24,840 bases of DNA from a virus: positions 1 to 24,840 of the IMG/VR virus record IMGVR_UViG_3300030060_005467, one strand, 5' to 3'. The notes below the pieces were generated by a model. That model did no database searches. It had not been told where the DNA came from and saw nothing but the letters and a program-made list of their open reading frames with translations. This document shows, one piece after another, positions 268 through 24,840 of the stretch (its first letter is position 1; every line of letters starts with the position of its first letter). A program made the translations under genes and the position numbers.

Positions 268-1235
268 GCTTTTGTCTCCTTTAATTTTTGATTTTTTGCC
301 ATTTTTAGTAATCTTTCAATACCATCATCAAATGCGGTATCAACATTAGATGCCTTTGCATATGGATAAGCTCTAACGTGAGCCTCATAGTTATGTCCCA
401 TACTTTTGCAAACAGTACCAACATCAATATTGGCAATCGCTGAATGGGCACCTAAAAAATAATGACCACCTGTAACATCTCTAGCCACCCTACCTTTAAG
501 CGTAGCTAACTTACCTGCACCAGCGGCGTTTATATATTCTGCTTGTGCCCAAAAATGCCATCCGCTATCGGCTTTTGAACCATCTAAGTTTAAAATAGAA
601 GAACTATTAAATTCAAATTCTGCCGATGAGCCTTCGTATAGATAAAGTACTGCACCTTCTGTAACTGACGGTTCAGTTCTTGCGGTAAAGTCTCCGTGTC
701 CCGTTATTTTAAAGAAGAGTGGGTTTGCTCCACTAGTAGTTTTAGTAAGGTCAGTAAATATTTTTCCAGTAGTTGTAGCATTTTTCACACCAGTTCCAGG
801 TAAAAAATGATAAGCAATCTGGTCCTTACCCAAATTAATTTCTTCATATTGCATAGTGGTCACTATTATTGTGTCACCACTTGTAACTCCAGATTCTGCA
901 GCCGATATCGTTTTATAAGGTTTAGTAATATAACCCTTTTGACCGTTGGTGTCATCACCATTTACATAATCAACGTAAGCAATATCACCTAAAACCACAT
1001 CACTTGTAATTCCAGTTATACTAACATTAGTTCCTGTTGAATTATTTATTGTTATTGTCCCAGCACTATACGTTCCACCAGTAACACTGTCGCCAATAAG
1101 GTCCTTTACTGTTCCATCAGTGAATTTAACTGAAGGATGGTTATCATTAGTACTATCTGAAAATAAAGTTATTCTACCACCACTTGGTGTAGTAACATCC
1201 GACTTATCTATGTTTGATATTGTAAATTTTGACAT
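264..1235 (-). CDS. Putative tail fibre/spike-like virion protein with beta-helix start
   Basis: A 323-residue Gly/Thr/Ser-rich protein of phage appendage type. Residues 1-75 carry a motif common at the N-termini of phage tail proteins (a G-G-R-I-T-L-F segment, then K-F-T-D-G-T-V-K-D-L). Around residues 88-125 a YVNGDD segment followed by KPYKTISAAE and SGDTIIV matches the opening turn of right-handed beta-helix proteins (pectate-lyase/DUF1565-like). The remainder is beta-rich and ends in a short Lys-rich helix. It lies 13 bases downstream of the gp15-like gene and overlaps the next small gene by 4 bases, so it belongs to the neck/tail operon. It could be a short fibre, a decoration protein or a spike. 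I see no catalytic residues that would support a depolymerase. Confidence 0.5.
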   Translation of the reverse strand: MSKFTISNIDKSDVTTPSGGRITLFSDSTNDNHPSVKFTDGTVKDLIGDSVTGGTYSAGTITINNSTGTNVSITGITSDVVLGDIAYVDYVNGDDTNGQKGYITKPYKTISAAESGVTSGDTIIVTTMQYEEINLGKDQIAYHFLPGTGVKNATTTGKIFTDLTKTTSGANPLFFKITGHGDFTARTEPSVTEGAVLYLYEGSSAEFEFNSSSILNLDGSKADSGWHFWAQAEYINAAGAGKLATLKGRVARDVTGGHYFLGAHSAIANIDVGTVCKSMGHNYEAHVRAYPYAKASNVDTAFDDGIERLLKMAKNQKLKETKA

Positions 1236-1248
1236 ATCTTTTTTTATT

Positions 1249-2301
1249 TTATATTATATCACCTATTAATGTAAATTTAGCTGCTGTGCCTAAATCTCTA
1301 GTCACACTTATAAATATGCTATCACCAGCGTTTACAATGAAATTATTATTAAAATCTAAACCATTAAATACTTGAACACCATTTACTGATATAAATATGT
1401 TAGTAGTACCCTCAATATTAATAATGTTAGTATATTTTGAATCATATTCAGCAACATAACTAAAATCAGAATTAGCTTGAGGTCTAAATATTACATTATA
1501 AGTAAACGTACCATTACTCTCATTGACAGCACTAGTAACTCTAGGCGTAACAGGCGTCTCAAGTACTTCACCCATAACTAATGCTCTGTTAATTGCTGGA
1601 ACTACTGTAAAATCATCTTCATCAATTACAAAACCTTCCAATACAATCTCAAAGGGTTGTACATAAAACCTTCTGTTTTCAAAATCATCAATATTACTTT
1701 CATCACCAACATTATTTAACAATAAAGGCATTGGATGACCCTTAACCCTAATATAATATTGTATAGAATTAAACGCCTTTAACACCTTTACATTAAACTT
1801 ATTTAAGTCTCTCATTTTATTTGAAAAAATCCTAACTTCATAAGTTATGTCTACAGATGTTGGTTGCGGAACCTTATAAATATCAATACCCTTTCTACCA
1901 CCTTCAAAAGTTGGAACCTTGTAGTATGTGTAATTATTTCTACCTGGTATGTTATATAAACCAGACTGATTATTACCAACTTGTGGATTTGGTTGCCTAA
2001 CTATCGTAATAAAAGGCATTTTAATGTTTTTGTATTTATCGGAATGTTGCCAAGTCTTACTAAATTCAGACCATCTTTGAAGTGTTAAAAATATCACCTC
2101 TACCTTTTCACCATCAATTGTCAGATTTAAATCCTTATCCACAAATTCAATGAAAGACTTATCCATATCCTCATACATAACACCCCTAGGCAAAAACGTA
2201 CCACCCTTACTGAAATCATCAATAAGTTGTTCTCTTCTAGCTAAACCAGTCTTTGGTTTAACTATTCTTATGTTATTTCTAAATCCTTTAGGTAAAGCCA
2301 T
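1249..2301 (-). CDS. Putative tail sheath stabiliser/tail completion protein (T4 gp15-like)
   Basis: A 350-residue protein whose layout matches T4 gp15, the hexameric cap that finishes the contractile tail and docks it to the neck. Visible parallels are: an early 'LPRGVMYED' segment before a long strand-rich stretch; a PFITIVRQPNP segment; a 'PTSVDITYEVRIFSNKMRDLNKF' type core at about residues 145-170, corresponding to the gp15 core of tyrosine/glutamate then 'I-F-T' and an acidic helix; and an 'RRFYVQPFEIVLEGFVID' strand near residues 210-230, corresponding to the gp15 'RRR..W.L.F...G' strand. An extra C-terminal beta domain of about 100 residues (250-350) is longer than in T4. It sits 4 bases after the gp14-like gene, as gp14 and gp15 adjoin in T4. 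The match is by eye only. Confidence 0.5.
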   Translation of the reverse strand: MALPKGFRNNIRIVKPKTGLARREQLIDDFSKGGTFLPRGVMYEDMDKSFIEFVDKDLNLTIDGEKVEVIFLTLQRWSEFSKTWQHSDKYKNIKMPFITIVRQPNPQVGNNQSGLYNIPGRNNYTYYKVPTFEGGRKGIDIYKVPQPTSVDITYEVRIFSNKMRDLNKFNVKVLKAFNSIQYYIRVKGHPMPLLLNNVGDESNIDDFENRRFYVQPFEIVLEGFVIDEDDFTVVPAINRALVMGEVLETPVTPRVTSAVNESNGTFTYNVIFRPQANSDFSYVAEYDSKYTNIINIEGTTNIFISVNGVQVFNGLDFNNNFIVNAGDSIFISVTRDLGTAAKFTLIGDII

Positions 2302-2305
2302 TTAA

Positions 2306-2830
2306 TTAAAGTCCTCTAAATTCTTGTTCGTCAACAGGGGCACACTTAACAGTTCTGTAAGCTCCCTTGTATCCCATTATTGTATGTTTATTATCGTAAT
2401 TTTTAATACCATCATTTGTTACTGAAAAATATCTAACTTCAGTCTCACTTACTGGATAACCTATATAATCACCGTAACTAAGTTCAGTATCAAGCTCAGC
2501 TAATTGAGAACTGTAAATACCAAAAGTTAAATTTCCATCTTGTAAATATCTAAGACTCCCAGCACCGCTATTATACGCCTTATTTTCAGCCTCTTCAAGA
2601 ATCGGTATAACTCTCAATTCCACTGGTGGGAAAAATTTAATACCGTCTTTAGGCGCTTCGCCATATAAATCATCAGAAGCAGTATTCTCTCTATCAACCC
2701 TATATAATATAACAACAAAGTTACCGTCACCTTCAATGGCTTCTCTACCCATTGATATATCTAAATCAAAGTCTTCATTAGAAAAAAACTTGTTTACTCG
2801 ATTTATAGGTATTTTTCTTGGTGTTGACAT
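2306..2830 (-). CDS. Putative neck protein (T4 gp14-like)
   Basis: A 174-residue protein, first gene of the minus-strand neck/tail unit. The C-terminal half has a 'YGDYIGYPVSETEVRYFSV' segment and then 'GYKGAYRTVKCAPVDEQEF', resembling the part of T4 gp14 where a 'GDLIYFPMDN..FEI' strand precedes the conserved beta region. In T4, gp14 with gp13 forms the neck that seals DNA-filled heads and joins them to tails. The gene is followed 4 bases later by the gp15-like gene, matching T4 order. It is shorter than T4 gp14 (256 aa), so this is a distant or reduced relative. A different head-tail connector fold is possible. No signal or membrane segment is seen. The start is the only ATG near the N-terminus and follows an AAAAAGAT tract. 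Confidence 0.4.
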   Translation of the reverse strand: MSTPRKIPINRVNKFFSNEDFDLDISMGREAIEGDGNFVVILYRVDRENTASDDLYGEAPKDGIKFFPPVELRVIPILEEAENKAYNSGAGSLRYLQDGNLTFGIYSSQLAELDTELSYGDYIGYPVSETEVRYFSVTNDGIKNYDNKHTIMGYKGAYRTVKCAPVDEQEFRGL

Positions 2831-2862
2831 ATCTTTTTAGATAAATATTTGAAAATAAGTAA

Positions 2863-2870
2863 TAATTATA
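2863..2870 (-). promoter_or_regulatory. Weak late-type promoter candidate for the 2830-76 unit
   Basis: On the minus strand TATAATTA stands 32 bases before the ATG at 2830. It is one mismatch from the T4 late box TATAAATA found elsewhere in this window, at a similar distance from its gene. One short AT-rich box is weak evidence on its own. Confidence 0.2.
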
Positions 2871-2876
2871 AAACAC

Positions 2877-2906
2877 TTGATTTTTTATTAAAATTCAATA
2901 CCTTTG
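2877..2906 (+). promoter_or_regulatory. Bacteroidota-type promoter for the helicase gene
   Basis: TTG at 2877-2879 and TACCTTTG at 2899-2906 are separated by exactly 19 bases, matching the Bacteroidota primary-sigma consensus TTG-N19-TAnnTTTG. Transcription would begin about 7 bases after the box, leaving a leader of roughly 25 bases before the ATG at 2937. It fires away from the neck operon on the other strand. This is the best-matching promoter in the window and the main sequence evidence for the host group. Confidence 0.8.
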
Positions 2907-2936
2907 TAAGTAATAAAACCTTTAACAAGTTAGATA

Positions 2937-4802
2937 ATGGACTTAAGTGATATTAATAGTGTGAAAGCAATTACCATACTAAAAGAGTATGAAGGTAAAA
3001 ACCCATATATTAAAAAATTAAAACTTAAACTAGAAAAAAACAACAAGTTGTTACTAACTAACAACCAATCTAATTATATTGTAAACAATCATGAGTTCAA
3101 ACCAAAAGCAATCAATAAGATTATAAGTATAACCAATTACTTAGGTGAAGAACTAAAAAAATCAGAACAACTAACCTTTACACCAGAAAAAATTCTAATA
3201 GAATATCTGTTAGCTGATAACGATAAAACTTTTCACGTTTATGGTAAAGTAAAAAGAAATCAAAAAAATAGTGAAATGTACTTTATACCTAAGTCACAAA
3301 TTTTAGATGATTTCTTATTTGAAGAAAAAGAAGTAGAAGTTGATTTTGAAAAGTATACAAAATTAGATACATTCGTATTAGATGATGGTACTGTGGGTAG
3401 AACACCATATGAACATCAAGTAGCTGGTATTAAATTTCTACTATCTAGAGATGGTTGTCTTTTGGCCGATGACATGGGTTTGGGTAAGACTTATCAATCA
3501 ATTATCGCTGCGTTAGAGAGTGGTGCCGAAAAGATACTTATCGTTTGTCCTACATCTATGAAAATAACTTGGGAAAGAGAAATAAACCACTTCCAATGTT
3601 TTGACACCGCAATTGTTAAAGACGGTAAAAAATGGGAAGAAGATAAATTTACCATAATCAATTACGATATACTTAAGAATTATCATGTAATTCCTGGTGT
3701 TGATATACCAAAGGATGATATATGTTGGGAGAATCAAAAACTAGTAATGGGTAATTTTGACTTAATCATTATGGATGAGGCACATAAGTTAAAAAACCAT
3801 AAGAGTAAGAGAGGGGCTATAATGAAAGACATCTGTACTAACTATGGTGATAAAAAGGTTTGGCTTTTAAGCGGTACCCCTGTAGCTAATAGACCTATGG
3901 ATTACTATAACTTATTAGCACTTATAGGTTCACCAATAGTAGCTAACTGGAAACACTATGTTATACGTTACTGTGACGGTAGACAAATCACCACTACACT
4001 TAAAAACGGATACAAAAAGAAAGTATGGCTTACTAATGGCTCTAGTAACCTAGAAGAATTAGCGCTGAAGACTAAAAACGTATACCTAAGAAGACTTAAG
4101 ACTGAAATAGGTGATATGCCTGAAAAGAATATCTCACCTACCTATCATAAGTTTACGGATAAGCAATGGGATACATATAATGAATTATGGGAAGAATACT
4201 TAGTTGAAAGAAAGAAAAAAAAGAAACGTGGAGAACCAGATAGAGATTTAGTTGAGTTAGGTTTACTTAGAAAATTTGTAGCAATGCAAGCAATCCCAGA
4301 AACTATTGATTTAGCTGAAGACATTATTGAACAAGAAAATAAGGTTATTATCTTTACCAACTTTACTGAGGAATTAATGGAATTACAAAAACACTTTGGT
4401 GATAAATGTGTTGTACACCATGGTAGCATGAGTGATTCTGAAAAACAAATATCAGTTGATAGATTTCAAAATAGTGATAAAGTAGAGGTCTTTATTGGTA
4501 ACATTATCTCTGCTGGTGTCGGTATTACCCTAACTAAGGCTACTCACGTCATCTTTAATTCATTCGATTGGGTTCCAGGTAACAATGAGCAAGCTGAAGA
4601 TAGAGCGTACCGTATAGGTCAAAAGAATAACGTTACGGTCTACTATCAATTATTTGAGAATACAGTATCGGTTAGAATGTGGCGAACACTTAAACAAAAA
4701 CAAAATGTAATCGACACAATAATGGGTGAAAAAGAAATTGATGAAGAAGCGGTTATGGAAATAATGTTTGAAGAAATACTAAATGATTATGAAGAGAGTT
4801 AG
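2937..4802 (+). CDS. SNF2-family DEAD/H helicase (ATP-dependent DNA translocase)
   Basis: A 621-residue SNF2-type ATPase expected to translocate on double-stranded DNA in replication, recombination or remodelling. The RecA-like core is complete: a Q-like 'PYEHQ' region near 160; Walker A DDMGLGKT at 178-185; motif Ia 'IVCPTSM'; DEAH box at 280-283; motif III SGTP at 312-315; a C-lobe with 'KVIIFTNF'; motif V 'GNIISAGVGITLTKA'; and motif VI QAEDRAYRIGQ at 552-562. The 'NEQAEDRAYRIGQ' form is diagnostic of SNF2/SMARCAL1-like proteins rather than UvsW. Residues 1-150 are Lys-rich and match nothing I recognise; they may be a DNA-binding or partner domain. The gene has its own host-type promoter and overlaps the glutaredoxin gene by 20 bases. 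T4-like phages more often carry UvsW, so this may substitute for it. Confidence 0.93.
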   Translation: MDLSDINSVKAITILKEYEGKNPYIKKLKLKLEKNNKLLLTNNQSNYIVNNHEFKPKAINKIISITNYLGEELKKSEQLTFTPEKILIEYLLADNDKTFHVYGKVKRNQKNSEMYFIPKSQILDDFLFEEKEVEVDFEKYTKLDTFVLDDGTVGRTPYEHQVAGIKFLLSRDGCLLADDMGLGKTYQSIIAALESGAEKILIVCPTSMKITWEREINHFQCFDTAIVKDGKKWEEDKFTIINYDILKNYHVIPGVDIPKDDICWENQKLVMGNFDLIIMDEAHKLKNHKSKRGAIMKDICTNYGDKKVWLLSGTPVANRPMDYYNLLALIGSPIVANWKHYVIRYCDGRQITTTLKNGYKKKVWLTNGSSNLEELALKTKNVYLRRLKTEIGDMPEKNISPTYHKFTDKQWDTYNELWEEYLVERKKKKKRGEPDRDLVELGLLRKFVAMQAIPETIDLAEDIIEQENKVIIFTNFTEELMELQKHFGDKCVVHHGSMSDSEKQISVDRFQNSDKVEVFIGNIISAGVGITLTKATHVIFNSFDWVPGNNEQAEDRAYRIGQKNNVTVYYQLFENTVSVRMWRTLKQKQNVIDTIMGEKEIDEEAVMEIMFEEILNDYEES

Positions 4803-10762: not shown

Positions 10763-12469
10763 TTAGTCAATATATCTACTCTTATCTATATTGAATCCAT
10801 TATTAATGTCTACCCAATTTAAATCACATATATAAAATTTAAATTCAGATATGTCACCAATAAACGTACCAGCAAAATTCTTTTCAATATTAAGTCCTAA
10901 ATCATCAGGGTCTTGACCGTCAAATGTCATTGACTCTAACAAACCTTGACTACCACCACCCAAACTAATATTAAACGGAACACCTAATTGCTTATCTTTG
11001 TATTCACTTAATCTTTTACTAACGAATTCTTTAAAATCATCAACAACATACTTGAGTCTACCATCAACATAAAACATAAGTCTACCAACTCTCAAAGGAG
11101 CACACTTTAACTCATTAGCTGGTATGTTTTCATCTAAAGAAAATCTTATAGAAATTTTATGCCATTTGTCATCTGAAACCATACCACTAATCGAATAAGA
11201 CTCATTGACAGTAACACCAGTAGTATAAACTTCGTTAACACAAGCCCCAGTCATTTGAAGACTTCTGTAACCTATACTACCATCATCTTTAATTCTGAAA
11301 CCTAGAGCGTTATCTATTATATCAATATCTTTATCTAGTTCTTTTAATTCAGAGGTAAATCCAGTAAACGTACACACTGTCTTATCACCAAACCCAGAAC
11401 CACTAGCACCACAAGTTCCACAACTACCGTCATTACCTGCCCTACCGTAAATTAAAAATGGGTTTTGTTTATTAACTATTTCTTTAGTATAGCCAGTTAT
11501 AGTTACCGTCTTACCAGTATCACATACGGTCAACGTACCTAATTCACCCTTGGTGGCACCACATGTCCCGCATTCATTACCAGCAGCCCTTCCGTACATT
11601 AAGAACTGATTGTCTATAACTGTAACATCTAAGGGTGGTGGACTTAATTTTACAGGGTAACCAGTATCACCACTAATAGCTACGTCAGTTTCTTTAGGCA
11701 CAGTACAATATGTTGTTACCGTTCCAGTACAAGCACTTGAAGAAGTACACCCACTAGTACAACCAGTGTTTAACCCATCAAATATGTTCCAAAATTTATT
11801 TTCAGCCCTAGTACCCATATAAAAGAAAAACCCCTTATTATCTGGGTAAGTATCATTAAGTGTTGTCCCAGTGTAACCAGAACAGTTTAAATCCGACTTT
11901 CTAATCCAAAACTCAGAAGTCCAACCCTTTTCTACCCTATCTGGTAATACCTGATAATCATACCCATCTAATTTGTAATACCCTTGGTAGAATCCACCAC
12001 ATAGTTTAGCATAACTACCAGTAGAACCAGAAAGTATATCTATAGGGTATTCATAGGATTCAGTCATACCCGTAACACGATTTAGTTTTAATCTTTTATC
12101 TCCAGACGTTAAATTAGTCGTTGTACCAGTCAATGCACTTAACAATGCAATATTAGAGGTGTCGCCAGTGGTTTTGTTAAATGTTATGTATCCATTATCT
12201 ATTCCAGTAAGTCCAAAGGTATTAAATGTGTAACCAGTATTAACAGCCCCACTCCATGTTTGCAAACTAGAAATTGTATTTGCTGAAGTTGTTCCAGTTG
12301 AATATATATTAGAATCATTGAAATCATATTGAACAACAAAACAGTCACCACTTACTGCACCGCTATAAGGTATTGCATCACCATTCATACCTAAATAGTA
12401 ATCATGATATTGATAACTAGATAAGAACGCATCTGTCTTATTGAATTTGAAGTTTTTTAAATTACCCAT
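10763..12469 (-). CDS. Cys-rich tail protein with concanavalin/LamG-like lectin fold
   Basis: A 568-residue protein, probably an adhesin on the tail. Lectin-fold signs: 'WTSEFWIRKSDL' near residue 180, 'DDKWHKISIRFSLDENI' near 435 (the strand-turn typical of laminin-G/concanavalin domains), 'GRLMFYVDGRLKYVVDDF' and a closing 'FAGTFIGDISEFKFYICDL'. The fold is interrupted between about 215 and 380 by a Cys-rich segment with a GCTSGCTSSSACTG patch and two copies of a roughly 49-residue unit (FL[MI]YGRA...CGTCGA...TVC...TG[YF]T). The N-terminal 130 residues are Ser/Thr/Gly-rich as in other tail proteins. It is two bases after the GT25-fusion gene. Binding to host glycans is inferred from the fold only. 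Confidence 0.65.
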   Translation of the reverse strand: MGNLKNFKFNKTDAFLSSYQYHDYYLGMNGDAIPYSGAVSGDCFVVQYDFNDSNIYSTGTTSANTISSLQTWSGAVNTGYTFNTFGLTGIDNGYITFNKTTGDTSNIALLSALTGTTTNLTSGDKRLKLNRVTGMTESYEYPIDILSGSTGSYAKLCGGFYQGYYKLDGYDYQVLPDRVEKGWTSEFWIRKSDLNCSGYTGTTLNDTYPDNKGFFFYMGTRAENKFWNIFDGLNTGCTSGCTSSSACTGTVTTYCTVPKETDVAISGDTGYPVKLSPPPLDVTVIDNQFLMYGRAAGNECGTCGATKGELGTLTVCDTGKTVTITGYTKEIVNKQNPFLIYGRAGNDGSCGTCGASGSGFGDKTVCTFTGFTSELKELDKDIDIIDNALGFRIKDDGSIGYRSLQMTGACVNEVYTTGVTVNESYSISGMVSDDKWHKISIRFSLDENIPANELKCAPLRVGRLMFYVDGRLKYVVDDFKEFVSKRLSEYKDKQLGVPFNISLGGGSQGLLESMTFDGQDPDDLGLNIEKNFAGTFIGDISEFKFYICDLNWVDINNGFNIDKSRYID

Positions 12470-12471
12470 AA

Positions 12472-13632
12472 TTAAAATGTTTCTAAGCTAGACCTTTTCC
12501 AACCACTATTAGTTTTAATATAAATATAATCATTATCCCTAACCACCTCACCAAGCTTACCCTTATCGTCTAAACTAGATGTTGGTGTGTATTCTGGTAT
12601 TATTAAACCATATGATTTTATATAGTTATTAGTTACCCAATCTCCATCCGAATCTATAAGAAACTCTGAATTAGTATCATCATCAATACCCTTATTTACG
12701 AATATTCCCCCATCTACTGCAGAATCTACAGTACCGTTATAATTTAATTCTATATTGTTATCTTCTGAAGCTACTGTTTGACTATTAATTATAACTTCTT
12801 CTTTACTGAATAATGTAGAATTATTAGAAGATATATCCTTAATGGTTTTATCCAATAAATCACGAACCTCTTTATAAGTAAGTCCAACAATATTGTCATC
12901 CTTTTTTAAAGTATTATCTACCTCAGTCTCAACAACTAAGTCACTTTTATCTACCTCTATCTCAGGAACGCTAGGTGCCATAGTTTCAATTTCACCTTTA
13001 CCACTTATACCATAATTCATCATAGTACCTCTTATTGTTGAATAATTGGGTACAGTAGTTATTAAATCATTTATTGACGCATATGATTTACCTCTTGGGT
13101 GTATTATACGACTAGTGATACTATCAATTGGCCTATCAACCAACTCCAACCACTCTAAATATTCATCGTATATTCTTTCACTTATCATATATATTTGACA
13201 TGACCAAGCACCAGTTAATCTAATTAAATCACCAAATCTTGCTGGAACCCCCATGTAATTTTGAGAAGCTAAGTGAAATAGCTCCCAATCTTCTGGTAAT
13301 TGATTAAAAAGTCTTTTACCATCTTTATATACATTATTTTTAAAGATTATATCATCCTCCATAATCATTATGGATTTATAACCTTTTTCCTTAGCCTCTT
13401 TAATTATCCTTTTAGTTGTATATACCAATCCAGCCGCACCTTGAGTCCATCCTTCAAATTTTGAGTTCATATTATTATTAACCCACTCTACATTTTCAGC
13501 CTCACCATCAACAGCTTCAACCAACTCAAATTGAGTACCTATTTTATGACATTGAGCTTTTATATTAGCCCTTCTATCATTACTTCTTTTTAAGTTTATT
13601 GCGTATACCTTATCAACTAATTTATGAAACAT
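12472..13632 (-). CDS. GT25-family glycosyltransferase fused to virion-type C-terminal domain
   Basis: A 386-residue fusion. Residues 1-205 form a glycosyltransferase family 25 domain (LPS-biosynthesis type galactosyl/glucosyltransferases): 'AINLKRSNDRR' (11-21), 'GAAGLVYTTKRIIKEA' (about 65-80), the metal/nucleotide-sugar site 'IMEDDII' with EDD at 92-94, then 'GAWSCQIYMISERIYDEYL' and 'RPIDSIT', matching the family's 'AYxIS...PID' end. Residues 205-335 are an acidic, low-complexity linker. Residues 339-386 carry a 'GKLGEVVRDNDYIYIKTNSGWKRSSL' type ending, a module common at the C-termini of Bacteroidota phage tail proteins. It lies between the beta-solenoid fibre and the lectin-like tail protein with 2-base gaps on both sides. 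All catalytic motifs look intact. Confidence 0.85.
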   Translation of the reverse strand: MFHKLVDKVYAINLKRSNDRRANIKAQCHKIGTQFELVEAVDGEAENVEWVNNNMNSKFEGWTQGAAGLVYTTKRIIKEAKEKGYKSIMIMEDDIIFKNNVYKDGKRLFNQLPEDWELFHLASQNYMGVPARFGDLIRLTGAWSCQIYMISERIYDEYLEWLELVDRPIDSITSRIIHPRGKSYASINDLITTVPNYSTIRGTMMNYGISGKGEIETMAPSVPEIEVDKSDLVVETEVDNTLKKDDNIVGLTYKEVRDLLDKTIKDISSNNSTLFSKEEVIINSQTVASEDNNIELNYNGTVDSAVDGGIFVNKGIDDDTNSEFLIDSDGDWVTNNYIKSYGLIIPEYTPTSSLDDKGKLGEVVRDNDYIYIKTNSGWKRSSLETF

Positions 13633-13634
13633 AA

Positions 13635-16600
13635 TTACTGTAGTTTTGTTGTAGTTGAGGCTGAAAAAACTCCTGAGTTATCAATATTAATACTCCATCT
13701 ATTACCATCAGCACTTTTTTTATCAAAAACAACTCCGTTATAACTTGTTGTTGCTGTAACAGCATTACCATCAACTAATACGCTATTACTAGCAAATGTA
13801 AACCCTGTAACAGATTTAACATTAGTAATATTATCACTAAAAGTGTTACCAGATTGACCAATACCAATTACTCTAATATTGTCACAATTTGAACCTATAA
13901 CAGTTTCGTGACACAATTTACCATCAAGTACCGTTGCACCTGTAACTGTAGCCAAGTTAATAGAATTCATATAACCACCAGTGTTACCAAGAGTGTATGA
14001 ATTAGAATATGTTGTATCACAACCTATAGCTATATTAGTGGTATTATCTCCAATTACACAATCATCACTATTAACTATAAAAATTTCTTCACAATTATTA
14101 CCTATTACACTTCTACTATTATAAGTACCAGGAGTTAGACCATTTCTAGTACCTAAAGAAGCTGACCAATCACTACCTCCAGAAGCTGGTGCTGTTGACC
14201 CAGTTAGAAATGTAGTTGCACTATTGTACGCCCTACCGTAAATAGCATTATCAAGTCTAAAAGAGTAACTTGTAAATGAAGGGTAACCAGGTTTAAAAAC
14301 CAAACCAACATCAGCTAAAGCAATATTACTATTATAATCACCAATTTTAGTAAATTCAGAACTTTCTAAAAATATATCAGCATTTCGATTACCTATAATA
14401 AGTTCTTTAGAATTTCTAGCTATAATATTTTCATTATAATCACCTATTTTTATCTTAGAAGCAGTACCACTAAGATATATACCAGTGCAAGCATTACCTA
14501 TACTAAAGTCACTAATACCATTACTTATTAATACGTTAGAACAAAACTCACCAATAGTTGAAATAGTAGCACTTGGAGTCCCCTGTAGAATTTTAATACC
14601 TGTGCTTTTATTACCTATATTGGCACTTGCAACACCATTAATCTCAACATCCAAGACTGAATCCCCTATTGTTACATATTGACCATTTACATTTGTTATG
14701 TTCTTAGAGCTTGGACCTATTTCATTATACAATGAACCAAATAGTATTATATTTTCACACTTAGCCCCAATATTACTAGCGCTTGACGAAGTTATAAACA
14801 TTTTTTTACAAAGAGGACCTATTACGATACCCCTATCTGTAGATTCACTAGTAGTAATACTAGACCCAAATCCATCAGGAAATGTCGCATTTACAGGGGT
14901 AACACTAGGCACACCGTTTTTAACTAAATCAATATCATTACACTCACTACCTAAAGTTACATTATTACTATTACTAATCCTAATATTAGTCATCCAATCA
15001 CCTAGTTTATTGTTATTACTATAATATGAATAAACTAAAGTATTATAACTACCTAAAGTGTTATTATTACTTAAAGCTTGAAATATAACTCCAGTGTTAC
15101 TACTACCCATTGTCAACCTTCTAACCCCTGAAGACACTAAAACATTTCTATTATTACTACCTATTACAATATTTTCGGAAAAGTTAGCTGTAGATGCTGT
15201 AATACCATTATATGTTGGCGCAGCTAAACTTCCACCTATTATAATATTTTCATTATTATCACCAATATTTATCTCTTTAATAACACCACCAGTAACCATG
15301 ACACCACTAGCATTTTTACCTATTCTTACGTTTTCAGCAGACTTAGTAAAAAACACAACATTGGCTATTTTACCATATATACTAGAAGTAAGCGTGGTAC
15401 TTATGACACCACTACCCGATGTGATACTAGCCTGGCTTTCTGAATTATCTATATGGATATTTATAAATCTAGGTGATTCGGTTCCGTAAATGTTGGCACC
15501 CATACCCACAAATGTTTTAAAATCCCTGAAAGTCCCATCAGTGTGAGTATTCATTGCACCAATATCGGCATGCCCAGCTGTAGAAAAATTAGCAAACCCA
15601 GGTATTAAGTCACCACCACTAGAAGAATTATAAACTACAGGATGATTTACGGTACTTGGCGTAGCATCAAACCCAATCATAGTTTTAAAATCTGCCACTC
15701 TAGCCGTTCCAGTATCAGTGACATCCATATCAAAACGTCTATGTATTACGTTTCTCCAATCGTAATGGGCTGATATATTGTTCACCGTATCCTCCCTGTA
15801 TGTTATAAATCCAGGTCTACTTTGAAGACCGTCTTCAGTTAAATTATCAGTAACATCATAATATATTATATCATTTGGATATTGTTCTGAGTAAACTTCG
15901 GTATGTATCTTATTAGGGGCTATCGCTAAAACTAAAAAGTTTTCAGTCTCTGCCGTTAATGTACTCTTAACTCCAGTTCCATCATCGTAATGTACTGAAG
16001 TATCATTATATTCAGCGGTGGTACCCCCAATTAAATGTTTAGTGTTATAAGCAAACTTATAAAATTTACCACCTATTAAACCACTATTAGATATTGCATT
16101 TGATAAGTCATTATAAGTTGTGGCAGACATACCAGACGTTATACCACTAACAGGCTGCCAAGAGCCAAGCCCTTCACCACTACTACAAGTCCACACATGT
16201 CCAGCTAACGGGTTGTCAGTTATTATAAGTTTTCTAGTTCTACTAATTTCTTTACAATCAGACCATATAGTTCTACCTGTATAATCTAAAGAACTAGCAC
16301 TATAAACATCAAATATAGTCATTGAAGTTGTACCAGTATAAATACCTGGGCTAGTCTCAGTCATAGCACTAACGTTGATGTTACCAACAGATACACCACT
16401 ATAAGACAACACAACAGGATTTCCATCTATAGTTGTTGTTTGATTTTCAACTAAAACAACCCCACTATTTTGAGTTTGAGCACTATTTGAAGATGTTATT
16501 GCTGATAAATATGTGTCAACTATGGACATTCTAGCATCTGGCCAAGTAAATGTAGTTGTGGTTGTATTTCCAGAAAAAGACCCATAAATAACTACTGAGT

Positions 16601-16757
16601 TGCTTTCCGTTATACCAGTATTACCATAATCAATACCACTTGTTAATCCACTAAACGGTACACCAAAGACTGTGGCACCACTTAAAGTAGTAGATGTTTT
16701 CTCTCTTTGTTTTATCTGTCTATTATCTGAATAATCTAATTTTGTTCTAAAGGACAT
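13635..16757 (-). CDS. Long tail fibre with beta-solenoid repeats
   Basis: A 1040-residue fibre, first gene of the tail operon. Residues 1-200 are Ser/Thr/Gly-rich and probably attach to the tail. Residues about 205-345 have a 'GGKFYKFAYNTKHLIG', 'EQYPNDIIYYDV', 'GFITYREDTVNNISAHYDWRNVIHRRF' domain that I know from tail proteins of marine Bacteroidota phages. Residues about 479-970 contain some 20 copies of an IG-x5-I-x-I unit, mostly spaced 17-18 residues, predicting an elongated beta-solenoid. The C-terminus 'YNGVVFDKKSADGNRWSINIDNSGVF' is a strand-rich tip. No hydrolase active site is evident, so receptor binding is more likely than depolymerisation. Plus-strand open frames inside are antisense shadows. 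Confidence 0.8.
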   Translation of the reverse strand: MSFRTKLDYSDNRQIKQREKTSTTLSGATVFGVPFSGLTSGIDYGNTGITESNSVVIYGSFSGNTTTTTFTWPDARMSIVDTYLSAITSSNSAQTQNSGVVLVENQTTTIDGNPVVLSYSGVSVGNINVSAMTETSPGIYTGTTSMTIFDVYSASSLDYTGRTIWSDCKEISRTRKLIITDNPLAGHVWTCSSGEGLGSWQPVSGITSGMSATTYNDLSNAISNSGLIGGKFYKFAYNTKHLIGGTTAEYNDTSVHYDDGTGVKSTLTAETENFLVLAIAPNKIHTEVYSEQYPNDIIYYDVTDNLTEDGLQSRPGFITYREDTVNNISAHYDWRNVIHRRFDMDVTDTGTARVADFKTMIGFDATPSTVNHPVVYNSSSGGDLIPGFANFSTAGHADIGAMNTHTDGTFRDFKTFVGMGANIYGTESPRFINIHIDNSESQASITSGSGVISTTLTSSIYGKIANVVFFTKSAENVRIGKNASGVMVTGGVIKEINIGDNNENIIIGGSLAAPTYNGITASTANFSENIVIGSNNRNVLVSSGVRRLTMGSSNTGVIFQALSNNNTLGSYNTLVYSYYSNNNKLGDWMTNIRISNSNNVTLGSECNDIDLVKNGVPSVTPVNATFPDGFGSSITTSESTDRGIVIGPLCKKMFITSSSASNIGAKCENIILFGSLYNEIGPSSKNITNVNGQYVTIGDSVLDVEINGVASANIGNKSTGIKILQGTPSATISTIGEFCSNVLISNGISDFSIGNACTGIYLSGTASKIKIGDYNENIIARNSKELIIGNRNADIFLESSEFTKIGDYNSNIALADVGLVFKPGYPSFTSYSFRLDNAIYGRAYNSATTFLTGSTAPASGGSDWSASLGTRNGLTPGTYNSRSVIGNNCEEIFIVNSDDCVIGDNTTNIAIGCDTTYSNSYTLGNTGGYMNSINLATVTGATVLDGKLCHETVIGSNCDNIRVIGIGQSGNTFSDNITNVKSVTGFTFASNSVLVDGNAVTATTSYNGVVFDKKSADGNRWSINIDNSGVFSASTTTKLQ
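13850..15323 (-). repeat. Protein-level tandem repeat of the fibre solenoid (about 20 units)
   Basis: Within the fibre gene, a motif of the form (I/L)-G-x-x-x-x-x-I-x-(I/L) recurs with a usual period of 17-18 residues (51-54 bases), e.g. IGAKCENIIL, IGDYNENIIA, IGNNCEEIFI. Nucleotide copies have diverged, so it is not a simple DNA repeat. A few units are longer by 3-20 residues, suggesting loops that project from the solenoid. Confidence 0.8.
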
Positions 16758-19404: not shown

Positions 19405-20718
19405 ATGGAAAGTTACGCCAAAGACAAAGACTTGTCGTTAAATAAAAAAACAAAAATAAAAGTATTAGTATGTCCTTCAGATAGAACGGGGGTCGGTTAT
19501 TTTAGAAGCACTAAACCACACGTTACATTAGAAGAACTATATCCCGATGAATTTCATGTAGATATAGACTATACACCAAAATACGACAACGAAGAATGGC
19601 TTAAACAATATGATATAGTTCATTATCATAGAACATTCGGTCCTTTTGAGCAAATGGAACAAACCCTAAATAGGTTAGACAAATTAGGTATTATTAGTTT
19701 TATGGATATTGATGACCATTGGGCACCTGGTCAACATCACCCAGCTTATATGATGATTAAAAATAGCGGTATGGATGTTAAAATAAAAAACAACATCAAA
19801 TTAGCCAGAAATGTAATAACAACAACAGATTTATTTGCAGAAGTTATTAGAAAAATAAATCCAAATGTTTTTGTATTACCAAATGCGATTGACCCAAACG
19901 AATCCCAATACATACCTAAGTCTGAACCTTCAGAAAGACTTAGAATAGGTTGGCTCGGAGGTTCTTCTCACCTAAAAGACCTAGAGATATTAAACGGAGT
20001 TTCAGGTAAATTAAAATCAGAAGGCTTAATAGATAAAGTCCAATTTGTTATTTGTGGATTTGACCTTAGAGGTACCATAACTATGATTGACCAACAAACG
20101 GGTAAACAAACACAAAGACCAATCAAACCAATGGAAAGTGTTTGGTATCAATATGAAAAAATATTTACAGATAATTATACCACAATAAGTGAAGAATATA
20201 AAAACTTTTTACTTTCATTTAAAAATGAAGAATATTCTAATGTGGCTAATGAACCATACAGAAGAGTATGGACAAAACCAATTACTACATACGCCAGTAA
20301 CTACAACTTATTTGACGTTTCATTAGCCCCAATTGAAGAACACACATTTAATAAGGTTAAGTCTCAATTAAAAGTTATTGAAGCTGGATTTCATAAGAAA
20401 GCAATCATAGCTCAAGATTATGGTCCGTATCAAATTGACCTAGAGTCTTATTTAGTTAAAAGTGGTAATAAAAAAATACAAGAACCAGTTGTTAACCCAA
20501 AAGGTAACGCACTTTTAGTCAAAACCTCTAAAAACCATAAGGATTGGTATAGAAATATTAAGAGATTAATACAAAACCCAAATATGGTTGAGGATATTAG
20601 AAATAATTTACACGACACAGTTAAAAATACTTATAGTATTGAGGCTGTTTGTGAAGATAGAAGAAGATTATATATTAAACTACTAATAGATAAGGGTACA
20701 TTAGTAACTGTTTTATAA
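19405..20718 (+). CDS. GT4-like (GT-B fold) glycosyltransferase
   Basis: A 437-residue cytoplasmic glycosyltransferase. The N-lobe shows 'KVLVCPSDRTGVGYFRSTKPH' (19-39) and a 'FMDIDDHWAPGQHHPAY' segment (DIDDHW at 101-106) seen in family-4-like phage enzymes. The C-lobe opens with 'LRIGWLGGSSHLKDLE' (about 179-194), the usual donor-binding strand and loop. The signature 'PIEEHTFNKVKSQLKVIEAGFHKKAIIAQDYGPY' lies near 311-345 and corresponds to the E-x7-E region of GT4 enzymes. Donor and acceptor cannot be deduced. It starts the island after a terminator, without an obvious promoter, and is separated by 86 bases from the HD-like gene. Possible acceptors are DNA bases, virion proteins or host surface glycans. 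Confidence 0.88.
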   Translation: MESYAKDKDLSLNKKTKIKVLVCPSDRTGVGYFRSTKPHVTLEELYPDEFHVDIDYTPKYDNEEWLKQYDIVHYHRTFGPFEQMEQTLNRLDKLGIISFMDIDDHWAPGQHHPAYMMIKNSGMDVKIKNNIKLARNVITTTDLFAEVIRKINPNVFVLPNAIDPNESQYIPKSEPSERLRIGWLGGSSHLKDLEILNGVSGKLKSEGLIDKVQFVICGFDLRGTITMIDQQTGKQTQRPIKPMESVWYQYEKIFTDNYTTISEEYKNFLLSFKNEEYSNVANEPYRRVWTKPITTYASNYNLFDVSLAPIEEHTFNKVKSQLKVIEAGFHKKAIIAQDYGPYQIDLESYLVKSGNKKIQEPVVNPKGNALLVKTSKNHKDWYRNIKRLIQNPNMVEDIRNNLHDTVKNTYSIEAVCEDRRRLYIKLLIDKGTLVTVL

Positions 20719-20760
20719 AAAATATTTAAAAATTTAAGTACATTTATTGATAATAAAACG

Positions 20761-20768
20761 TATTTTTG
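20761..20768 (+). promoter_or_regulatory. Partial Bacteroidota promoter (-7 box only)
   Basis: TATTTTTG fits TAnnTTTG and lies 36 bases before the ATG at 20805, in an 86-base gap. No TTG is found 19-20 bases upstream (the nearest ends 11 bases away), so this is a half-match and possibly a weak promoter for the HD-like and dUTPase genes. Confidence 0.35.
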
Positions 20769-20804
20769 TGACATTATTAATAACTTAAAACTAAATATTA
20801 GATT

Positions 20805-21359
20805 ATGTTAACAGAAGAAAAAATTAAAAAGAATGTACAAAAATTTAACGAAACTGGGGTTAAATACGGTGTTATTAATGATGAATTAATAACACTACTT
20901 GGTGTAGACTTTATAACCGCACCATGTACTACCACAACAAAATTATATGGAGCTTATGAAGGTGGGTTAGTTCAGCACATACTAAACGTAACCAAACACG
21001 CTATAGCAATAAACAACTCACTACCAGAATCAAAACAAGTTACCAAAGAAGCTATTATTAGAGTGTGTTTAATTCATCAGATAGGTAAAGTAAACATGTA
21101 TTCTGAACAAACATCACAATGGCACAAAGACAACAAGGGTGAGATGTATACATTCAATGAAGAGTCGTTAAGTATGAGTACCGCTGAACGCTCAGTATTT
21201 TACGCTTTAAAATCAGGAATAGACTTAACTGAAGATGAGGTTTATGCCATATTTAACTATAATAGCGATTTCGCTTATTGGTCACTAGAAAAAGAAGGTG
21301 AAAAATTAGCATCATTACTTAAAACAGCTAACTTAATAGCAATAATTGAAGAAAAATAA
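20805..21359 (+). CDS. HD-domain-like protein with altered HD motif
   Basis: A 184-residue protein resembling phage and bacterial HD-superfamily phosphohydrolases: 'LYGAYEGGLVQHILNVTKHA' has the first metal-site histidine (H58), and 'EAIIRVCLIHQIGKVNMY' occupies the position of the usual 'LLHDIGK'. In this protein the invariant Asp is Gln (H91-Q92), read clearly as CAT CAG. The later 'ERSVFYALKSGIDLTEDEVYAIFNYN' helices match the family's C-terminal part. Loss of the Asp should weaken or abolish metal-dependent hydrolysis, so a regulatory, binding or repurposed role is likely. It lies directly before dUTPase, between two glycosyltransferase genes. Confidence 0.75.
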   Translation: MLTEEKIKKNVQKFNETGVKYGVINDELITLLGVDFITAPCTTTTKLYGAYEGGLVQHILNVTKHAIAINNSLPESKQVTKEAIIRVCLIHQIGKVNMYSEQTSQWHKDNKGEMYTFNEESLSMSTAERSVFYALKSGIDLTEDEVYAIFNYNSDFAYWSLEKEGEKLASLLKTANLIAIIEEK

Positions 21360-21369
21360 AATATTATTT

Positions 21370-21993
21370 ATGAATGAAATAGAAACATCATATGATGACA
21401 TAAACGAAAAACTATCTAGAGCCATAGACCCTAACGATAGTTATACCCTAGATGATTTTGATAAAGAATTTGGGAATGTTAGTCATACATTTGACCCAAC
21501 ACTTAATGGTAGTTTAGTAACAACCCCAAAGTACGATATTAAAATCAAAAATAATTCCAGAAACGAAACACCTAAGTATGAAACAAATGGTGCTGCTGGT
21601 TTTGACTTTAGGGCAAATTTAGAAGACGGTGAATCAATCGTAATAGGACCTTCAGGTAGCGGTAATAATGTGGCTATGGTACCAACTGGATTACATTTCC
21701 AATTACCTCCAATTATGGAACTTCAAGTAAGACCAAGAAGTGGATTGGCTGCTAAGAAATCAATCACGGTTTTAAACTCTCCAGGTACTGTAGATAGTGA
21801 TTACAGAGGTGAGGTTAAGGTAATACTAATTAATCATGGAACTGAAGATTTTGTTATAAGTAACGGAGACAGAATAGCCCAAGGAGTTATTTCTTCAGTA
21901 TTTAGTATGGATTATATAAACTTTAGTCAAGTTGATGAACTAGATGAAACGGAAAGAGGTTCTGGTGGATTTGGTAGTACAGGTATAAAATAA
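21370..21993 (+). CDS. dut: dUTPase (deoxyuridine triphosphatase)
   Basis: Hydrolyses dUTP to dUMP and pyrophosphate, keeping uracil out of phage DNA and feeding dTMP synthesis. All five trimeric dUTPase motifs are present (numbering from this ATG): 1 AAGFDFRA (about 75-82), 2 RPRSGLAAK (121-129), 3 NSPGTVDSDYRGEV with catalytic D142, 4 GDRIAQGV (166-173), 5 RGSGGFGSTG (196-205). The ATG at 21370 was chosen over an in-frame TTG at 21346 because it follows an AT-rich Bacteroidota-type leader and avoids overlap with the HD-like gene. The first ~55 residues before the fold are an acidic extension not found in typical 145-155-residue enzymes. Confidence 0.95.
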   Translation: MNEIETSYDDINEKLSRAIDPNDSYTLDDFDKEFGNVSHTFDPTLNGSLVTTPKYDIKIKNNSRNETPKYETNGAAGFDFRANLEDGESIVIGPSGSGNNVAMVPTGLHFQLPPIMELQVRPRSGLAAKKSITVLNSPGTVDSDYRGEVKVILINHGTEDFVISNGDRIAQGVISSVFSMDYINFSQVDELDETERGSGGFGSTGIK

Positions 21994-22000
21994 AATAAAC

Positions 22001-23647
22001 ATGATTAGTATAGTATACTGCACAAGGGAGTCAAATCCTAAACATTCTGAGCATTTAAGAAAATGCTCTGGAGAGTTAAAAAAAGTTGAAATTATTGAAT
22101 ATATAAACAAGGGTGAAGGATTAACAAAATTTTATCAAAAAGCCCTTGAAGAAGCTAAGTATGATATCATCGTGTTTTGTCACGATGATATTTTGTTAGA
22201 GACTAATCAGATATCTAAAAAAATAACTAAACTTTTTAATAACAACCCAGAGTATGGAATTATAGGTGTTGCTGGGACTAAATACATGTCAGAAACTGGA
22301 AGATGGTGGGATGATAAGAAAAAGATGTATGGTAAGGTTAAACACACACATAATGGTAAATCTTGGTTATCTAGCTATAGCGGTGATTTGGGTAATGAAT
22401 TAACGGAAACCGTTATAGTTGATGGATTGTTTTTTAGTGTTCATAGAGGTAGAATTAAAAAGGGGTTTAATTTAGATGTTAAAGGATTTCACTTTTATGA
22501 TGTAGATTTTTGTTTTAGAAACTACATAGAGGGTGTTAAAATAGGTGTACATACCAACGTTAGAGTTAATCACATGTCTATTGGTGAAACAAACCAAGAG
22601 TGGGAGGATAATAGGTTGATTTTTTCTGAAGAATACAAAGAACACCTACCAGTTAAAATTGATAAAATATTTGGGCCAAAAGACAAGATAAAGGTTTTAA
22701 TAGGGTGTATTAACTTCCAAGGCCTTACTGGTTCTGAACTATATGTTTATGAATTAGCCAAATCGTTACTAAAGAAAGGGTGTGAGGTATCAATTTGTTC
22801 AAACCTAGGCTCACCTTTAAGTAACTGGGCAAATAGATTAGGAATAAAAGTTTATACTATAGATGAACCACCTGGGTATAAAAAGGGTGATGGTAATTGG
22901 CAAATAAGCACCCCACAAGGGATTGAACCATCAAAACCAGGGTTATTATATAAGATAAAGGATATTGAGTTTGATATAATGCATTTAAACCATAAACCAG
23001 TAACCGAACACTTGTTGAGGTTATATCCTAACACCCCAACAATATGCTCAATACATTCTGAAGTTATATCACTAGAAGAGCCAGTATTATCACCAAATAT
23101 AAAAAAATATATTGCGATTAGACAAGAGATTAAAGACCATATAGTTAATAATCATTCAGTCCCATCTGAATTGGTTAATGTGGTTTACAATCCAATTGAT
23201 ACAACTAGATTTAGGAAATTAAATAAACCAAAAAATAACAAAAAAAGAATTTTATTTGTTGGTACCATAGATTATTTAAGAAAGAATACAATACAAGATT
23301 TAATAAACACAACTAAAGATAATAATCAAGAGTTATATATTGTTGGTAAAAACAATGACAATTACCTTGATAATATGTTAATTGGTAATGAGCATGTTAA
23401 ATATTTTCCACCAACAAACAGGGTTGAAGACTACATTCACATGTGTGACGAAACCGCAGGTATATTATTAGGTAGAACAACAATCGAAGGCTGGTTATGT
23501 GGTAAAAAGGGTTGGATTTACGATATAGATAAAGAAGGTAATATAATTAATAAAAAATTACACGACATACCTAGTGATGTTGAAAAGTTTAGTTCAGATA
23601 AAGTTTCAGAACAAATAACAAAGATATATAAAGAGATTTTAAAATGA
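22001..23647 (+). CDS. Two-domain glycosyltransferase (GT2-like plus GT4-like)
   Basis: A 548-residue fusion of two transferase folds. Residues 1-225 are GT-A/GT2-like: 'MISIVYCTRES', 'YDIIVFCHDDILLE' with the metal-site HDD at 61-63, 'GIIGVAGTKYM', and 'VDGLFFSVHRGRIKKGFNLDVKGFHFYDVDFCFR', the acceptor and general-base region of GT2 enzymes. From about 229, 'IKVLIGCINFQGLTGSELYVYELAKSLLKKGCEVSIC' opens a GT-B/GT4-like domain, with 'KRILFVGTIDYLRKNTIQDLI' starting its C-lobe near 415. Such fusions can add two sugars in succession. It begins 7 bases after dUTPase and overlaps the next gene by 4 bases (ATGA). Confidence 0.88.
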   Translation: MISIVYCTRESNPKHSEHLRKCSGELKKVEIIEYINKGEGLTKFYQKALEEAKYDIIVFCHDDILLETNQISKKITKLFNNNPEYGIIGVAGTKYMSETGRWWDDKKKMYGKVKHTHNGKSWLSSYSGDLGNELTETVIVDGLFFSVHRGRIKKGFNLDVKGFHFYDVDFCFRNYIEGVKIGVHTNVRVNHMSIGETNQEWEDNRLIFSEEYKEHLPVKIDKIFGPKDKIKVLIGCINFQGLTGSELYVYELAKSLLKKGCEVSICSNLGSPLSNWANRLGIKVYTIDEPPGYKKGDGNWQISTPQGIEPSKPGLLYKIKDIEFDIMHLNHKPVTEHLLRLYPNTPTICSIHSEVISLEEPVLSPNIKKYIAIRQEIKDHIVNNHSVPSELVNVVYNPIDTTRFRKLNKPKNNKKRILFVGTIDYLRKNTIQDLINTTKDNNQELYIVGKNNDNYLDNMLIGNEHVKYFPPTNRVEDYIHMCDETAGILLGRTTIEGWLCGKKGWIYDIDKEGNIINKKLHDIPSDVEKFSSDKVSEQITKIYKEILK

Positions 23648-24306
23648 GATTATTAATTAAATTCCCCACTAGAAATAGACCTAGGAAATTTTTAAGTACA
23701 CTTATTAAATACAATAATAAAATGGTAGATAAAAATAACATCGTTGTATCAATAGACAATGATGACGAAACAATGAAAGAACCTTATGTTATGGAGTTTC
23801 TAAACGAATTAGACCATGTTACGGTTTGCTCAGGGGACAATAAAACTAAGATTGAAGCCATTAATGCTGATGTACCTGAAGAAGGGTGGGACATACTTTT
23901 ACTAGCCTCTGACGATATGATACCAATCATAAATGGGTTTGACACCATTATAAAGGAAAAAATGCTAGAAAATTTTCCAGATACAGACGGTGTTCTTTGG
24001 TTTAATGACGGATACCAAGGTAATAAATTAAATACATTATCCATTATTGGTAAAAAATATTACGATAGATTTAAATACATTTACAATCCAGAATATATTG
24101 CCTGCTGGTGTGATAATGAATTCACTAAGGTTGGTAACTTACTTAATAGGCAGAAATATTTTGAAGAAACTATAATTAGACATGAACACCCAGACTACGG
24201 TTATGGTAAAATGGATTATGCACATCAGATGAATGTTAAATATTATTATTCTGACATGGATATTTTTAACCGAAGACAATTAAATAATTTTAACTTAGAC
24301 TTATGA
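23644..24306 (+). CDS. Small GT-A-fold glycosyltransferase-like protein
   Basis: A 220-residue protein with a GT-A start: 'RLLIKFPTRNRPRKFLSTL' then 'NIVVSIDNDDETM', a 'KIEAINADVPEEGWDILLLASDDMIP' segment with SDD at 89-91 in the position of the metal-binding DxD, and a C-terminal 'YIACWCDNEFTKVGNLLNRQKYF' followed by 'RHEHPDYGYGKMDYAHQ' that resembles acceptor-site sequences of GT2 enzymes. Shorter than most GT2 enzymes (no C-terminal membrane region), so soluble. It is linked by 4-base overlaps to the genes on both sides, which suggests one coupled transcript. Confidence 0.75.
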   Translation: MRLLIKFPTRNRPRKFLSTLIKYNNKMVDKNNIVVSIDNDDETMKEPYVMEFLNELDHVTVCSGDNKTKIEAINADVPEEGWDILLLASDDMIPIINGFDTIIKEKMLENFPDTDGVLWFNDGYQGNKLNTLSIIGKKYYDRFKYIYNPEYIACWCDNEFTKVGNLLNRQKYFEETIIRHEHPDYGYGKMDYAHQMNVKYYYSDMDIFNRRQLNNFNLDL

Positions 24307-24840
24307 AAAATATTTGTACCGTTTCAGATATAAATTACTTAACTAAAGGTTTAGCTTTACTAGACTCTTTATGTAAACACACTAACGATGTTGTATTACA
24401 TTATCTTTGTATAGATAAAGAATCACATGACGTACTTAAAAAACACGAATCTGACAGATTAATCGTTTATAATATTAAAAACTATCTTGAATCCGACAAC
24501 AACTTATTAAGATTAAAAAACACTGAGTACAGGTATTTCTGCTGGTCATTAGCTTCGTATTTTACTAATAAATTATTAAGTTCTGGAAAGTATTCTGAAA
24601 TAACATACATTGATAGTGATATCTATTTCCATAAAAGTTTTGACTTAATACTGAACGAGATAGGTGACAAAAGTGTTGGTATGTTTAGGCACAGGCAGTT
24701 CCCACTAGACGCAAATAGACCTGAAGGGGCTTTTAATGTCGGTGTAGTATATTTTAAATCCTCAAAAGTTGGATTATCCCTTTGTAATTGGTGGGCTGAT
24801 GCTGTTTTAAATAAAAAGTATCCTAAATACGCTACTTGCG
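24303..24840 (+). CDS. DxD glycosyltransferase, partial (runs off the window)
   Basis: Begins with an ATG overlapping the previous stop (ATGA) and stays open to the window edge, 179 codons. The protein starts MKNICTVSDINYLTKGLALL, a nucleotide-sugar transferase opening, with 'LCKHTNDVVLHYLCIDKES', then 'EITYIDSDIYFHKSFDLI' holding the DSD metal site at 104-106. 'PEGAFNVGVVYFKSS' and 'LCNWWADAVL' follow, as in GT8-like and related GT-A enzymes of surface-polysaccharide synthesis. The stop codon and full length lie beyond this window. It extends the glycosyltransferase island downstream. Confidence 0.8.
   Translation, partial: MKNICTVSDINYLTKGLALLDSLCKHTNDVVLHYLCIDKESHDVLKKHESDRLIVYNIKNYLESDNNLLRLKNTEYRYFCWSLASYFTNKLLSSGKYSEITYIDSDIYFHKSFDLILNEIGDKSVGMFRHRQFPLDANRPEGAFNVGVVYFKSSKVGLSLCNWWADAVLNKKYPKYATC

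Follow-up and report, generated by a model that had tools for sequence, protein, structure and literature searches.

Glycans have been described on phage virions, with the capsid and tail tube of mycobacteriophages as the reported sites (Freeman et al. 2023, as cited in PMC12619734). A separate body of work concerns phage fibres that carry a Peptidase_S74 chaperone domain. The C-terminal helix of S74 domains drives trimerization by assembling into a triple coiled coil, and the chaperone is released from a Ser residue onward once it has folded (PMC4690869, PMC8326128). Our literature search found neither a glycosyltransferase–fibre cassette nor a glycosyltransferase fused to the end of an S74 fibre, and the glycosylation by phages of their own fibres thus looks little studied.

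Here we examine a fibre locus in a 24,840-nucleotide stretch of viral DNA (hereafter the window; IMG/VR record IMGVR_UViG_3300030060_005467) in which a GT25-family glycosyltransferase is continuous with the C-terminal end of a fibre. A preliminary description, made from the sequence alone, had proposed that this enzyme is recruited to, or incorporated in, the virion, where it might glycosylate the Ser/Thr-rich fibres or modify host glycans on contact. Of these roles, glycosylation of the fibre is, in our analysis, the best reading.

A GT25 enzyme joined to a fibre C-terminus

The 386-codon open reading frame and the 2-base gaps that separate it from the genes on either side are confirmed (Table 1). 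The designation of the 568-aa neighbour as lectin-like holds only weakly (Laminin_G, E = 0.083, below the cut-off). Four proteins tested against NCBIfam gave no match.

Table 1. Coordinates of the chimeric gene, its parts and its neighbours in the window
Feature	Position	Strand	Description
Whole chimeric ORF	12472..13632	(-)	386 aa: GT25, linker and S74-fibre C-terminal stub
GT25 domain, residues 1–209	13006..13632	(-)	Pfam, alignment, AF2/Foldseek, tree
Linker, residues 210–242	12907..13005	(-)	Predicted disordered; dN/dS about 0.78
Residues 243–268, remnant of last strand and C-terminal helix of Peptidase_S74	12829..12906	(-)	Without Ser–Lys dyad
Residues 269–386, post-S74 C-terminal fibre module	12475..12828	(-)	EDNNIELN...GGI...DGDW...RDNDYIYIK..GWKR; dN/dS 0.16
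Partner fibre, 1040 aa	13635..16757	(-)	TKLDYSDNRQ N-terminal peptide, head domain (A9), beta-helix-like repeats; without S74
C-terminal tip of the 1040-aa partner fibre	within 13635..16757	(-)	GNRWSINIDNSG...TTKLQ
Replaced stretch (fibre body and GT25), approximate extent	12878..16223	(-)	Flanked by two L004-homologous blocks
568-aa tail-region protein	10763..12469	(-)	Follows the fibre locus in the window, L001 and L004

Profile, fold and homologue matches all bear out the earlier claim that an intact GT25 enzyme is joined to a tail-fibre C-terminus within a fibre operon. The enzyme occupies residues 1–209 and carries the expected INLKR (residues 12–16), EDD (92–94) and PID (168–170) motifs. 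Pfam PF01755 matches residues 8–122 with an E value of 2.6e-14 (54 bits, against a curated cut-off of 24), and PHROG 2835 (glucosyltransferase) is matched with an E value of 2e-13. AlphaFold models residues 1–195 mostly at pLDDT 80–98, and a Foldseek search with the GT25 domain returns human COLGALT1 as the best PDB fold match (E = 9e-14), with mimivirus R655 and bacterial beta-1,4-galactosyltransferases ranking next. The IN pair (residues 12 and 13), EDD and PID are invariant among seven aligned sequences, and the EDD aligns with that of COLGALT1, such that a GT-A fold with its EDD metal/donor motif is present. Sugar transfer is the activity predicted from this fold and these motifs. A search of bacterial genomes with the GT25 domain produced one distant match.

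Other phages carrying the fusion were sought, and one further, independent contig (L001) bears an equivalent 386-aa gene of 89% identity whose alignment with the window protein includes the linker. This recurrence excludes chance and makes an assembly artefact unlikely. The possibility that the C-terminal module is produced as a unit from its own start was also rejected, as the window and L001 have no internal start codon in common within the linker.

The C-terminal stub derives from an S74 fibre

Relatives retrieved from IMG/VR and confirmed by tblastn form two groups, one matching GT25 only and the other matching only residues ~243–386. Standalone GT25 homologues stop at about residue 209 of the chimera and carry no module. 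For residues 243–386, C-terminal matches at 41–76% identity were obtained in 33 other proteins from viral contigs (88% for L001), and most members of this module-only group are large proteins that match over their extreme C-terminus. The C-terminal module reported previously is real, but it begins near residue 243 rather than 330 and is larger than had been claimed.

Almost all of the scanned proteins that share this end are S74-type fibres. Among the 28 other carriers scanned, 27 have Peptidase_S74 just before the module, 27 have a Ser-x4-Lys dyad of the form SDxx[LM]K (S+5=K) about 194–233 residues from the end, and 12 have YadA head repeats. An exception to the S74 rule is a 133-aa protein (L015:7980-8381) in which an N-terminal fibre peptide, TKIDISNNRQ, is directly joined to the module. 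The chimeric protein itself gives no match to PF13884 (S74) and lacks the Ser–Lys dyad, and the 85-kb record, which is incomplete, contains no S74 match and no second copy of the module. Residues 243–268 (with IVGLTYKEVRDLLDKTIKDI) can nevertheless be aligned to the final strand and helix of the S74 domain (VHYKDVTALLVEAIKEL). The helix is kept in the chimera and is predicted to be helical, with LLVEAIKEL changed to LLDKTIKDI. When folded alone, the module reaches a pLDDT of 58 and yields weak matches only, some of them to annotated fibre or structural proteins, which we do not count as evidence; this low value may perhaps reflect an intertwined trimer.

This ancestry bears on whether the enzyme reaches the virion. 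In S74 fibres the module forms the extreme C-terminus, downstream of the site of autoproteolysis; it thus lies on the chaperone side of the cut, and in those fibres it would be expected to come off together with the chaperone. A TKLDYSDNRQ N-terminal peptide, the putative virion anchor, is found in the neighbouring fibre and in 25 of the 28 carriers, and is absent from the glycosyltransferase protein. With its module on the shed side and this peptide missing, the enzyme has no evident route into the virion, and the earlier suggestion that the module places it there is not supported. A related proposal is that the enzyme becomes part of the virion via the fibre module and modifies host glycans when the particle meets the cell. 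The module is indeed fibre-derived and under purifying selection (see below), and the L015 protein, which joins an N-terminal peptide to the module without S74, implies that some virions may retain the module. However, this proposal is improbable given the missing anchor and the position of the module relative to the cleavage site; moreover, the standalone homologues are entirely without the module, and a transferase outside the cell would have no nucleotide-sugar donor.

The gene arose by recombination

One contig (L004) appears to preserve the arrangement before the fusion. It has the same downstream genes as the window and a short, ordinary fibre composed of an N-terminal part, S74 and the module, with the first bases lost at the contig end. 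Two blocks of DNA align: L004 positions 2–439, encoding the fibre N-terminus, correspond to window positions 16661–16224, and L004 positions 736–3813 correspond to window positions 12877–9806. Between them, the S74 core (L004 positions 440–735) is swapped in the window for ~3.3–3.35 kb encoding a beta-helix-like fibre body and GT25. The last fibre residues and GT25 of the window share 80% DNA identity with another contig (L002), wherein GT25 stands alone as a 210-aa gene that ends at a stop codon of its own, and the chimera is thus joined where GT25 naturally ends. Judged from these alignments, in which both junctions are visible, the gene is a recombination chimera; the event probably proceeded by entry of a cassette into an S74 fibre gene.

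The histories of the two halves have since become mixed. A block of 94–98% identity between the window and L001 spans the fibre 3′ end and GT25, and the dS value is 0.13 in GT25 versus 0.38 in the stub. This inequality, along with the highly similar block, suggests that the cassette was probably re-exchanged between the two lineages. The fusion would be older than the re-exchange, because the linker is common to both lineages and is more diverged.

The stub is maintained by selection

Comparison of the window with L001 yields a dN/dS value of 0.19 over the 144 codons of helix and module (Fisher p = 7e-8), derived from 26.5 synonymous differences at 88 sites and 23.5 nonsynonymous differences at 344 sites; this estimate rests on one sequence pair in which recombination has mixed the histories of GT25 and stub. 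The same comparison gives 0.78 for the linker (p = 0.75), with no sign of purifying selection, and 0.23 for the GT25 half, which is also constrained. On these values, the stub is under purifying selection since the fusion.

This constraint weighs against the idea that the stub is a functionless, neutral scar of the recombination. The stub did apparently arise as a leftover, and the adjoining linker evolves without visible constraint, but a dN/dS of 0.19 next to an unconstrained linker makes neutrality very improbable. Another interpretation is that the stub represents the functional gain, in which helix and module chaperone the S74-less fibre in trans and the glycosyltransferase is a passenger. 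The event that created the stub also deprived the fibre of its S74 end, the incomplete record offers no S74 and no other copy of the module that might substitute, and the stub is constrained. Even so, we regard this interpretation as quite unlikely, because the same fibre type in three other contigs (L003, L042 and L103) is accompanied by a standalone GT25 with no stub, and the GT25 half of the chimera is constrained as well.

A GT25 clade is paired with one fibre type

Profiles of GT25 and of the fibre head domain were run against all fetched loci. GT25 lies directly behind a fibre with the A9 head domain in the window, L001, L002, L003/L005, L042, L103, LR756504 (L046, with identical sequence in L104/L105), L106 and L108, with gaps between fibre and GT25 of 2–30 bp (2 bp in the window). 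In phylogenetic trees, nine GT25s form a core clade (support 99/97), and 9/9 are directly behind a fibre, including one case in a 636-kb phage. The GT25 of L108 falls near this clade, and neither it nor a second GT25 of LR756504 is firmly placed. By comparison, 16 to 18 other GT25s in two trees are not behind such a fibre; several other phage GT25s reside in glycan clusters adjoining dUTPase, and the second LR756504 GT25 is likewise in a glycan cluster.

Two further arrangements were observed. L002:206-1457 holds a tandem pair of GT25 genes behind a fibre that is truncated by the contig end; the second GT25 of the pair groups with the L106 GT25. In L085:2927-5054 (also L086, L087 and L092), the final 14 nt of a head-domain fibre gene are shared with a very divergent GT25, and the pairing may have originated here a second time.

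The N-termini of the paired fibres vary, being a TKLDYSDNRQ peptide, a collagen-like GxxGxx sequence or, in LR756504, another sequence. The persistence of the pairing across these differences indicates that the fibre body and GT25 behave as a module. Of 40 fibre sequences in the head-domain family, 32 are without a GT25, and the enzyme is thus not a general requirement of this fibre type. Relative to unpaired fibres, GT25-paired fibres display no clear peculiarity in S/T, N or sequon composition. A separate locus (L069:5478-12247) has four tandem head-domain fibres, 2–4 bp apart and without GT25, whose tips end in SPDGxLW forms.

S74 and fibre-paired GT25 never occur together in 17 records: 9/9 with the paired GT25 are without S74, and 8/8 with S74 are without a paired GT25. 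We treat this exclusivity as a lead only, because the S74 records were picked for S74 and most records are fragments. It is a speculative and rather improbable extension that GT25 glycosylation of the fibre is a maturation route alternative to the S74 self-cleaving chaperone, with this locus being a snapshot of the replacement that reuses the trimerization helix.

Many phage glycosyltransferases modify host surface glycans, and this GT25 could do the same, for receptor masking or superinfection exclusion, while being merely co-expressed with late fibre genes. The window contains, at 19405-24840 (+), a glycan cluster apart from the fibre locus, in which a phrog_7162 glycosyltransferase, a fusion of GT2-like and GT4 domains, and a GT8 surround dUTPase, and related phages keep GT25s in such clusters. 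The paired clade, in contrast, is found outside glycan clusters, directly following a single type of fibre in phages that differ greatly from one another, and its GT25 appears to move with its fibre. A host-glycan role for the fused enzyme is accordingly unlikely.

A probable fibre-dedicated glycosyltransferase

The best explanation, to which we assign a probability of about 0.5, is that GT25 is dedicated to the upstream fibre, which it glycosylates, and that the stub trimerizes or docks the enzyme. Its strongest support is the core GT25 clade, which is always behind the same fibre type. Against it stand the many fibres of the head-domain family that have no GT25, the absence of a clear compositional difference between paired and unpaired fibres, and an estimate of stub constraint drawn from a single pair of sequences with mixed histories. 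If this model is correct, the enzyme would move a sugar, probably galactose or glucose from a UDP-sugar as judged by family resemblance, onto the immediately upstream beta-helix fibre in the infected cell, before assembly or as it proceeds. The fibre body and GT25 would travel between phages as one cassette, which in this lineage would have taken the place of the S74 core in an older fibre gene. By virtue of this replacement, the GT25 frame would have run into the leftover 3′ end, comprising the S74 trimerization helix and the C-terminal module. Selection has retained this stub, probably for a role in trimerizing the enzyme or in docking it onto the trimeric fibre. Whereas fold, chimera, stub constraint and pairing are read directly from sequence, the activity, the fibre as acceptor and the trimerization or docking are what we infer from them.

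Taken together, fusion and pairing suggest that these phages glycosylate their own fibres. Host range is decided by phage fibres, and a glycosyltransferase gene tied strictly to one fibre family names an enzyme, a probable acceptor and the phages in which to test them. The locus also indicates that the swapping of fibre modules can yield a new enzyme architecture that is then kept by selection.

Comparison with known systems

The window GT25 has a GT-A fold and EDD motif in common with COLGALT1, mimivirus R655 and bacterial beta-1,4-galactosyltransferases, with COLGALT1 being the best solved match (sequence E = 1.7e-4, profile E = 3e-9, fold E = 9e-14). Unlike this group, it is phage-encoded, paired with a tail fibre and fused to a fibre C-terminus. 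Collagen as an acceptor, which the likeness to COLGALT1 brings to mind, was considered and set aside: long Gly-X-Y runs are present in the L003 and L042 fibres and such runs are absent from those of the window, L001 and LR756504, and without a run in the window fibre a collagen acceptor is unlikely here. Elsewhere, L120:3807-5243 encodes a GT25 fused to a C-terminal 2OG-Fe(II) oxygenase-like region (OGFOD2-like, E = 5e-6; 2OG-FeII_Oxy_3, E = 0.0014; both below curated cut-offs), which recalls the bifunctional collagen hydroxylase-glycosyltransferases.

Among phages, Burkholderia phage AP3 (L048) has a GT25, annotated as a glucosyltransferase, that ends a tail gene block; it differs from the window gene in having a GpD-type tail protein as its neighbour, in its 26.6% identity and in the lack of any fusion. 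In mycobacteriophages, virion proteins bear glycans, as we propose for the window fibre, although the sites reported in the cited part of that source are the capsid and tail tube rather than a fibre, and that part describes no glycosyltransferase–fibre cassette or fusion. The final helix and module of the chimera descend from a fibre of the Peptidase_S74 chaperone type, exemplified by endosialidase and the T5 L-shaped fibre pb1. Compared with those fibres, the chimera has lost the Ser–Lys dyad and most of the chaperone, and a glycosyltransferase takes the place of the fibre.
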